From: Chitinophaga pinensis
Lineage (GTDB): Bacteria > Bacteroidota > Bacteroidia > NS11-12g > UBA9320
Direction: 5' to 3'
Assembly: GCA_945907065.1 (NCBI GenBank)
Contig: CAMDSC010000004.1
Location: 62,001 to 126,000, forward strand
DNA length: 64,000 nucleotides
The position numbers and the translations under genes are program-made. Under the pieces are notes generated by a model. That model saw nothing but the letters and a program-made list of their open reading frames with translations. It searched no databases and was not told the origin of the DNA. The number at the start of each line of letters is the position of its first letter. Position 1 is the first letter of the stretch. This document shows, one piece after another, positions 30,032-51,120 of the stretch.

Positions 30032-30110
30032 GTGATTCTCATTTCGATGAATGAGAAACCTTTAGAAGTCATTTTTTAGATTTTTCCTATCGTAGGAATA
30101 ACAGAATCAC
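30032..30110. repeat. Multi-hairpin interspersed repeat, copy C
   Basis: A 79-bp element bounded by perfect 8-bp inverted repeats GTGATTCT (30032-30039) and AGAATCAC (30103-30110). It contains TTCTCATT/AATGAGAA and TTCCTA/TAGGAA hairpins and is a diverged copy of the element at 49726-49792. Its last base is part of the stop codon complement of the CotH-type gene. Confidence 0.7.
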
Positions 30111-43089: not shown

Positions 43090-43118
43090 TTTTGTCATTC
43101 CGAGGAACGAGGAATCTA
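43090..43118. repeat. Interspersed hairpin repeat, half copy B
   Basis: A single-hairpin copy: TTTTGTC, then stem ATTCC/GGAAT around the loop GAGGAACGA. The loop is identical to the right arm of copy A (49726-49792), while two stem base pairs differ in a compensatory way. The last two bases overlap the stop codon complement (43116-43118) of the gene on the minus strand. Confidence 0.7.
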
Positions 43119-49272: not shown

Positions 49273-49713
49273 ATGAACTTACCCGAAAAAGTAAATAGTG
49301 AAATAACTGCGGCTATGAAGGCTAAAAACGAGCCTCGTTTGCGTACTTTCAGAAATATAAAAGCGCAATTTTTATTATTGCAGTCATCAGGCAGTGACGT
49401 GGCCGAAGATGCTTATTTAAAAGCTATTCAAAAAATGGCTAAAACAATTCGTGATAGCATTGAAATATTTGATAAAGAAGGCCGAACCGATTTGGTAACT
49501 AAGGAGCGTGAAGAATTAACCATTATTGAAGAATTGCTTCCTGCCCAAATGAGTGAAACTGAAATTACTGCTATAGTTCAGGGTATTATTGCCCAAACCG
49601 GGGCTGCCGGAATGAAGGACCTTGGAAAAGTGATGCCTGCTGCTATGAAAGCAACCGCCGGTGTAGCGGATGGGAAACTGGTTTCTGAAGTGGTGAAACG
49701 GTTGTTAAGCTAG
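49273..49713 (+). CDS. yqeY: GatB/YqeY domain protein
   Basis: A 146-residue helical protein with the YqeY family N-terminus (LRTFRNIKAQF) and the GatB-tail-like C-terminus (GMKDLGKVMPAAMKAT). It resembles the C-terminal tRNA-binding tail of the amidotransferase subunit GatB; a role with Glu/Asp-tRNA is inferred, not shown. It starts 4 nt after its own promoter box. Confidence 0.92.
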   Translation: MNLPEKVNSEITAAMKAKNEPRLRTFRNIKAQFLLLQSSGSDVAEDAYLKAIQKMAKTIRDSIEIFDKEGRTDLVTKEREELTIIEELLPAQMSETEITAIVQGIIAQTGAAGMKDLGKVMPAAMKATAGVADGKLVSEVVKRLLS

Positions 49714-49725
49714 TTAAAAGTTTTA

Positions 49726-49792
49726 TTTGTCATTCCGACGATAGGAGGAATCTCATCTTAGAAAGAGATGTCTCGTTCCTCGACATGACAAA
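49726..49792. repeat. Multi-hairpin interspersed repeat, copy A
   Basis: A 67-bp element with perfect 8-bp terminal inverted repeats TTTGTCAT (49726-49733) and ATGACAAA (49785-49792). Inside are three hairpins: ATTCC/GGAAT, CATCT/AGATG and ATGTC/GACAT. It lies between the convergent yqeY and ugd genes. Confidence 0.75.
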
Positions 49793-49800
49793 ATTAATTA

Positions 49801-51120
49801 TTAAATCTTAGCCCTGCCAATACACTCATACGAAAATCCGTATTCTACCATTTCCTCTGGCTCATAAATATTTCGTCCGTCAAAAATTACTTTGTGCTTT
49901 AGGCGGCTTCCCATTTCTTCAAATTTAGGGGAACGGAACTCTGGCCATTCAGTCACAATCAATAAAGCATCGGCATCATTTAATGCTTCATATTGTGAGG
50001 TAGCATACATTATGGAATTACCTAAAGTCTTCTTTGCTTCATGCATAGCCACAGGGTCATAAGCCGTCACAGTAGCTCCTTCGGCTAACAGTTTATCTAT
50101 AATTACCAAACTGGGGGCTTCACGCATATCATCGGTTTTGGGTTTAAAAGCCAATCCCCACATAGCAAAGTGTTTTCCGTTTAGAGAACCAAAATGTTTC
50201 TTAATTTTTGTAAATAAAACCGATTTCTGAAAATCATTCACCGATTCCACAGCTTCTAAAATCTGCATTTTATACCCATGTTCATGGGCAGTTTTGGCAA
50301 GGGCTTTCACATCTTTTGGAAAACAAGAACCGCCATAACCAATTCCGGGATATATAAATTTATTGCCAATTCGCGGGTCGCTGCCTATTCCTTTTCTCAC
50401 ATGATTTACATCGGCTCCCATTATTTCACACAAGTTGGCAATGTCATTCATAAAACTGATTTTGGTAGCCAACATAGCATTCGCGGCATACTTGGTCATT
50501 TCAGCCGATGGGATATCCATAAAAATAATAGGGTGCCCGTTGAGTAAAAATGGTTTGTACAAACGCTTCATTATTTCTTCGGCACGGTCACTTTCCACTC
50601 CTACCACAATTCTATCAGGCTTTAAAAAATCTTCTATAGCAGCACCTTCCTTTAAAAATTCAGGATTAGAGGCTACATCAAATTCAATGTCCAAACCACG
50701 CTTATCCAATTCTTGTCTAACAGCCAGTTTTACTTTTTTCGCCGTTCCTACAGGAACCGTACTTTTGGTAACAACCACTCCATAGTCGTTCATATGTTGA
50801 CCAATTCCGGCAGCTACAGCAAGCACATATTTAAGGTCCGCACTTCCGTCTTCTCCAGGAGGAGTTCCAACGGCTATAAAGGCTACATCGCAATCTTTAA
50901 TACTTTCAGCAAGGTCTGAACTAAAATTCAAACGGCCTTCTTTGTGGTTTCTAACCACCATTTCTTCAAGTCCAGGCTCAAATATTGGAAGTATTCCTTT
51001 TTTTAAGTTTTCTATTTTATTTACATCAATATCTACGCAGGTTACATCAATGCCTACTTCGGCAAAGCATGTTCCAGTAACTAAACCCACGTATCCTGTT
51101 CCTATAACGGCTATTTTCAT
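49801..51120 (-). CDS. ugd: UDP-glucose/GDP-mannose dehydrogenase family protein
   Basis: A 439-residue NAD-dependent four-electron dehydrogenase that makes a sugar nucleotide uronate. The Rossmann motif [10 protein letters not shown] is at residues 7-16; the catalytic Cys266 lies in [14 protein letters not shown]; a second Rossmann domain (about 310-439) binds the sugar nucleotide. UDP-glucose is the likely substrate, but UDP-GlcNAc or GDP-mannose cannot be excluded. It is 21 nt downstream of the DegT-type aminotransferase, forming a nucleotide-sugar operon. Confidence 0.9.

Follow-up and report, generated by a model that had tools for sequence, protein, structure and literature searches.

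Few short repeats of bacteria are as common as tagged REPs. In the RAYT/GTAG systems they occur as inverted pairs of tagged hairpins (REPINs), and in REPtrons the single-copy gene of an enzyme with an HUH/Y1 fold is surrounded by its repeats (Nunvar 2010, PMC2817692; Bertels and Rainey 2011, PMC3116915). Another class, carrying a CGTC or TGTC tag, was defined by Di Nocera, De Gregorio and Rocco (2013, PMC3733652) as REPs without a dedicated transposase and was reported in Bacteroidetes in its CGTC form. According to the same paper, Neisseria dRS3 and Rickettsia RPE belong to the CGTC REPs; both have the CGTC tag, inverted pairs and fully Watson-Crick stems of 8 bp.

The window analysed here, which is the whole stretch of 64 kb, contains three elements, A, B and C, whose location is given in Table 1. 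They are genuine copies of one dispersed repeat, C being badly decayed. The earlier note had described three related elements and this is borne out, with scores of 35.7 to 46.4 bits for the arms of A and B, while C is convincing only as a pair. Indeed, its left arm taken by itself is not significant with the arm model in the 64-kb window; as an inverted pair, C reaches 33.6 bits and is the second-best pair of the window, when 25 Markov shuffles gave no pair above the scan threshold. The 8-bp inverted repeats previously seen at both ends of A (TTTGTCAT/ATGACAAA, 49726-49792) exist as described, yet they belong to the inverted arms, of which they form the outer portion, and are not separate ends; that of C (GTGATTCT/AGAATCAC) also exists but falls outside the family consensus. 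The loop of the right arm of A corresponds to a tandem G·A, a G-C closing pair and a GAA triloop, and that of its left arm has the consensus length plus one base. Element A is flanked by convergent ORFs (49273-49713 on the plus strand and 49801-51120 on the minus strand), B also has convergent ORFs on either side, and C is located directly downstream of a minus-strand ORF. No Rfam family matches in the 64-kb window.

Table 1. Arms and spacer of the three elements of the window; bit scores and E values were obtained with a 27-nt arm covariance model in the 64-kb window.
Feature	Position	Strand	Sequence features	Evidence
Element A, left arm	49726..49753	+	TTTGTC tag, stem ATTCC/GGAAT, loop GACGATAGGA	cmsearch 35.7 bits, E 6.8e-7
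Element A, spacer of 12 nt between inverted arms	49754..49765	.		sequence; pair scan
Element A, right arm	49766..49792	-	stem ATGTC/GACAT, loop GAGGAACGA	cmsearch 43.4 bits, E 6.4e-9
Element B, one intact single arm	43091..43117	+	stem ATTCC/GGAAT, loop GAGGAACGA	cmsearch 46.4 bits, E 1e-9
Element C, decayed left arm	30035..30061	+	TTCTCATTTCGATGAATGAGAAACCT region	14.8 bits alone, E 0.2
Element C, decayed right arm	30078..30105	-	10-nt loop like that of element A left arm	inverted-pair score

The arm consensus has 27 nt (TTTGTC-ATnnn-GA-S-GNA-S'-GA-n'n'n'AT-CT) and comprises, in this order, an unpaired TTTGTC tag, a 5-bp stem starting with AT, a tandem G·A, one closing pair, a GNA triloop and a CT tail. 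Reading the head as G·A-G·A plus GNA relies on what is established about DNA loops that form stable hairpins. Since single arms have unremarkable DNA folding energies, close to those of shuffles, covariation was used as evidence for the structure. Arms gathered with a structure-trained model are biased toward that structure; the seed arms were collected by BLAST before any model was built, and have standard pairs in 94.2% of cells versus 77.0% in shuffles. Among 63 distinct arms of other Bacteroidia, mutual information is highest for four column pairs (1.49, 1.15, 0.78 and 0.43, the next being 0.22), all of them among the six predicted pairs. Pair 9-23 is T-A, G-C, C-G or A-T in all arms but one, which has G-T; nearly all arms have G-C, C-G or A-T as pair 14-18. 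The tandem G·A is conserved in the same arms (63/63 and 61/63), and their triloop starts with G (62/63), followed by any base and by A (63/63). Covariation is seen in both sets analysed (63 and 75 distinct arms), in which the TGTC tag is nearly invariant; the stem starts with A-T then T-A in nearly all arms, and G-T pairs are present in some stems. The paired changes first noticed in the stems of three hairpins are thus real, and they persist in an alignment of many more copies.

When compared to the published CGTC REPs (PMC3733652), the arms share an unpaired CGTC/TGTC tag at one end (TGTC being allowed by that paper), a stem starting with AT, a short unpaired tail, a layout of mostly head-to-head inverted pairs, a location at gene ends and the absence of a RAYT. 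They differ by their stem, with 5 Watson-Crick pairs versus 8-9 bp and a total of 8 only if the tandem G·A and the inner pair are counted, by their loop, of 9 nt (or a GNA triloop when the G·A are counted) versus 4-5 nt, and by their tail, which is CT when that of the CGTC REPs is mostly CCA. The stem also distinguishes them from dRS3 and RPE. Because tag, AT start, layout and location agree while stem, loop and tail do not, the repeat is placed as a TGTC-tagged relative, outside the four published CGTC families.

A BLAST search of element A against its own genome returned 15 further places at E<=0.001, or 16 in all, and the arm model detected 38 arms in these 2.7 Mb, with E values down to 4e-8. 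Most are paired in inverted orientation with tags outward, a REPIN-like layout. None of 21 elements lies inside a long ORF and, by gene context (n=20), 16 have tandem neighbours, 4 have convergent ones and none has divergent ones. Across the genus, arm counts are 0, 2, 7, 15, 37, 42 and 107; in the rest of the family, 30 of 31 genomes have no arm, the other one (G008) having 7, and in a phylum-wide sample at least one arm match occurs in 98 of 392 genomes, the strongest being in the same class. Such patchy counts fit mobile DNA and not a housekeeping signal. With these further copies in the genome and in relatives, the REP/MITE-like element under structural constraint postulated in the earlier note is upheld as a dispersed REP/REPIN-like element.

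The site of element A is occupied in one sister genome (G006) and empty in another (G004). The syntenic copy in G006 has paired changes in both stems, ATTCC/GGAAT becoming ATTTC/GAAAT and ATGTC/GACAT becoming ATGCT/AGCAT, and this comparison is the best case of drift under constraint. In G005 (L370, G005:C57:1-2200), the element at the same site is preceded by ~880 bp of additional sequence containing an ORF. In one large genus of the same class (g15; L113-L118 and L130-L133), the spacer between arms is longer, ~50 nt, and shows partial conservation (e.g. CGCAAGTAACTC.ACAAAGATTG); it carries its own inverted repeat and the whole forms a larger composite element.

In relatives, arms bracket a standalone gene encoding a GIY-YIG nuclease of ~97 aa (UPF0213-like), and one of the densest arm arrays of G005 contains a GIY-YIG nuclease gene of 98 aa. 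In a first survey, the flanks of GIY-YIG genes from 14 genomes were scanned with the arm model and with a hairpin scan that assumed only a GTC(A) tag, and several genes were found bracketed by inverted tagged hairpins. At L235, in a genome of another family (G128), the arms on both sides of the gene are identical to the 24-nt core of element B; at L232 (G005), the flanking arm is identical to other arms of the window genome; and in G298 the gene is surrounded by a canonical CGTC REP pair (CGTCATGCCGAATTTATTTCGGCAT). In Alpha-, Beta- and Gammaproteobacteria, the same nuclease is found between canonical CGTC REPs, and in the Neisseria locus examined dRS3-type CGTC repeats occur on both sides of the GIY-YIG gene. 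The association is seen in several phyla and concerns both CGTC and TGTC types, when no dedicated transposase is given for the CGTC REPs in PMC3733652. In plasmid records, protein searches detected the nuclease family in Sinorhizobium, Rhizobium, Shinella, Neorhizobium, Sphingobium and Novosphingobium, as well as in Azospirillum, Aeromonas, Neisseria, Planktothrix and Spirosoma; 12 of 17 of these loci passed a strict bracket test.

For the genome set, 80 nuclease loci, those closest to proteins already seen bracketed, were chosen by protein sequence alone (four-member alignment scan), and 77 of them were testable. Inverted tagged-hairpin brackets were found at 30 of the 77 (about 40%), versus 8 of 1954 shifted intervals taken from the same genome loci and from the plasmid loci; none was found at 13 UvrC/DnaQ-type GIY-YIG genes. 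Outward YGTCAT tags on both sides within 300 bp occur at 56 of the 77 loci (73%) versus 29 of 1485 shifted intervals (2%), and this tag has a density of 9.1 per kb beside the nuclease gene, which drops to about 1 per kb at distances over 750 bp. An additional 30 Bacteroidota nuclease loci have outward tags on both sides in 22 cases. At bracketed loci, 52 of 65 TGTC-tagged flanking hairpins display GA..GA directly inside a 5-bp stem. Several standalone GIY-YIG subfamilies, such as those of L229, L242, L267 and L270, have no brackets.

Arm arrays adjoin the nuclease gene at L306, L290, L232 and L235, and genomes near such loci may be very rich in arms, with at least 149 and 111 in two cases. At L306, L290 and L323, the arrays next to the gene are long and made of regularly alternating arms, more than 20 at L306. 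As in REPtrons (PMC2817692, PMC3116915), a single-copy enzyme gene is surrounded by repeats and these form inverted pairs of tagged hairpins; the tag differs, and so does the enzyme fold, GIY-YIG here versus HUH/Y1. No nuclease of the REP-linked type is found in the own genome with its 38 arms, nor in the sister G006 with its 42 arms, which indicates that arm carriage needs no enzyme at present. The only weak extra GIY-YIG match of the own genome is a 156-aa protein (L257, G000:C54:1-4500); it is probably a restriction enzyme and not of the REP-linked kind, because a nearby protein resembles a DNA cytosine methyltransferase.

The REP-linked nuclease consists of a PF01541 domain and little else. 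Its expected catalytic positions are nearly always conserved; residues Y18, G20, R28, H32, E68 and N87 are kept in 98-100% of about 100 proteins and the enzyme looks active, as far as its sequence tells. The nearest solved structures are UPF0213 proteins (profile match to 1zg2, E 1.5e-15), then the structure-specific nuclease SLX1, which makes it plausible that a structure-specific nuclease acts on the hairpin. Size and domain are those of the UPF0213/COG2827 proteins (E. coli YhbQ; PDB 1zg2, 1ywl). The E. coli yhbQ gene has yhbP and yhbS as close neighbours, which leaves hardly any space for arms, and is apparently a resident gene, whereas the REP-linked nucleases are patchy. In Caulobacter crescentus, three small COG2827 genes have been read as possible repair enzymes (PMC1839093).

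Nuclease identity correlates with arm similarity over all loci (Mantel r=0.56, 0/5000) and in the genome set alone (r=0.23, 4/5000), and nuclease and arms are found in the same genome in 71 cases versus 44 expected (odds ratio 4.8, 391 genomes), shared ancestry being only partly removed in these tests. Some sites also bear signs of movement. In Azospirillum lipoferum 4B, a block of ~520 bp composed of a REP pair, the nuclease gene and a REP pair lies between sufB and sufC, and is missing in three close species; at the level of sequence comparison, this empty site shows an insertion of the nuclease plus REPs. In Sphingobium plasmids, a REP-nuclease-REP unit occurs at one site in some and is missing in others. 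In two of them, TomTYG74 and TomTYG64 (L366 and L367), the gap between fnrL and a response regulator gene contains a single hybrid palindrome that is tagged at each end (e.g. CGTCACCCCGGGTCAAGCCCGGGGTGACG), presumably the remnant of a deletion between shared 8-bp repeats. No clear target-site duplication was seen at the few empty sites compared.

We infer from these data that the repeats may be mobilised by the nuclease, and it seems fairly probable that TGTC-tagged REPs are the non-autonomous form of a small arm-nuclease-arm mobile element whose nuclease acts on the hairpin. The wider proposition, toward which we lean slightly, is that in several phyla the YGTC-tagged REPs have, as their dedicated mobilising enzymes, small GIY-YIG nucleases of the standalone UPF0213-like kind, and form with them a second REP system parallel to RAYT/GTAG, in which the tandem G·A plus GNA head would be the likely recognition feature of the TGTC branch. 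The full form would be an arm, the GIY-YIG nuclease gene and an inverted arm, mostly about 350-550 bp with tags outward, and REP pairs such as element A would be its non-autonomous offspring. The nuclease would recognise hairpins extruded from its own arms and from solo REP pairs and would cut near the tag, after which the arm pair could be copied or moved to new sites. To our knowledge, a GIY-YIG nuclease alone has no transposition chemistry, and the remaining steps would have to come from the repair or replication of the host. As the own genome has no such nuclease, elements A, B and C are probably orphans, that is relics of an earlier spread.

Other explanations have been weighed against this mobilisation by the nuclease. 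Chance dyads in AT-rich intergenic DNA would agree with the weakness of element C alone and with the unremarkable folding energy of single arms; this reading is refuted, and has virtually no probability left, when the 38 arms of the genome with their E values and the covariation in both arm sets are taken into account. REPINs mobilised by a RAYT, the Y1 transposase toward which the earlier note had pointed, share the layout of inverted pairs of tagged hairpins, and Y1_Tnp genes do occur in these genomes, with one in the own genome. Yet the tag is TGTC and not GTAG or GTGG, arms flank none of 60 Y1_Tnp loci from this family and from REP-rich Bacteroidia, the best arm match near any of them being weak and ~1.3 kb off, and the CGTC REPs likewise have no flanking transposase gene (PMC3733652). 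A GTAG-type RAYT REPIN was rejected on these grounds, and mobilisation by a RAYT, largely refuted, is very improbable. The inverted tagged-hairpin bracket test was passed by 2 of 56 Y1_Tnp genes; one (L100, in G036) has its own unrelated palindromes (GTCACGGATAAATATCCGCGACAG) and the other (L098) has no convincing arms. The palindromes of L100, which belong to a RAYT-like gene region at about 1266-1980, may correspond to the atypical structures that have been described for RAYTs of subclass 2.6.

The main rival reading treats the nuclease gene as a parasite, a homing-type GIY-YIG gene that inserts into, or travels with, REP pairs spread by another agent. GIY-YIG is a classic homing-nuclease fold, the gene lies between two arms as would be the case after insertion into a REP pair, and many genomes have arms without the gene. 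This situation is nevertheless rather unlikely, since the arms are amplified in arrays adjoining the gene (L306, L290, L232 and L235) as in the REPtrons of RAYTs, arm type tracks nuclease type, and no other candidate mobiliser was found beside arms, as judged from the 60 Y1_Tnp loci. Finally, the repeats might be RNA or DNA signals kept by the host at gene ends (mRNA 3' stability, termination, or sites for gyrase or other proteins), with mobility long past. Their exclusion from long ORFs and from divergent gene pairs in the own genome would suit such a role, as would the G-T pairs of some stems, which an RNA would show; still, it is improbable given counts that range from 0 to 107 copies within one genus with none in most of the family, the lack of an Rfam match in the window, and single-arm DNA folding energies close to those of shuffles, and it leaves the nuclease association unexplained.

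A search of the literature from which most subscription papers and bioRxiv were missing returned no paper linking GIY-YIG, COG2827, UPF0213 or YhbQ to REPs, and an earlier description is possible. The hairpin structure, including its non-standard G·A pairs, is kept while the sequence drifts, and this would explain why searches for perfect stems may miss the TGTC branch. The CGTC class, one of the two great REP classes, was left without a known enzyme in 2013, and the nuclease is a concrete single-gene candidate for it; if true, this would be an enzyme fold not earlier tied to the spread of REPs. The association also suggests a likely role for the widespread small nucleases of COG2827/UPF0213, which may be the enzyme, long missing, by which an entire class of bacterial repeats is spread.
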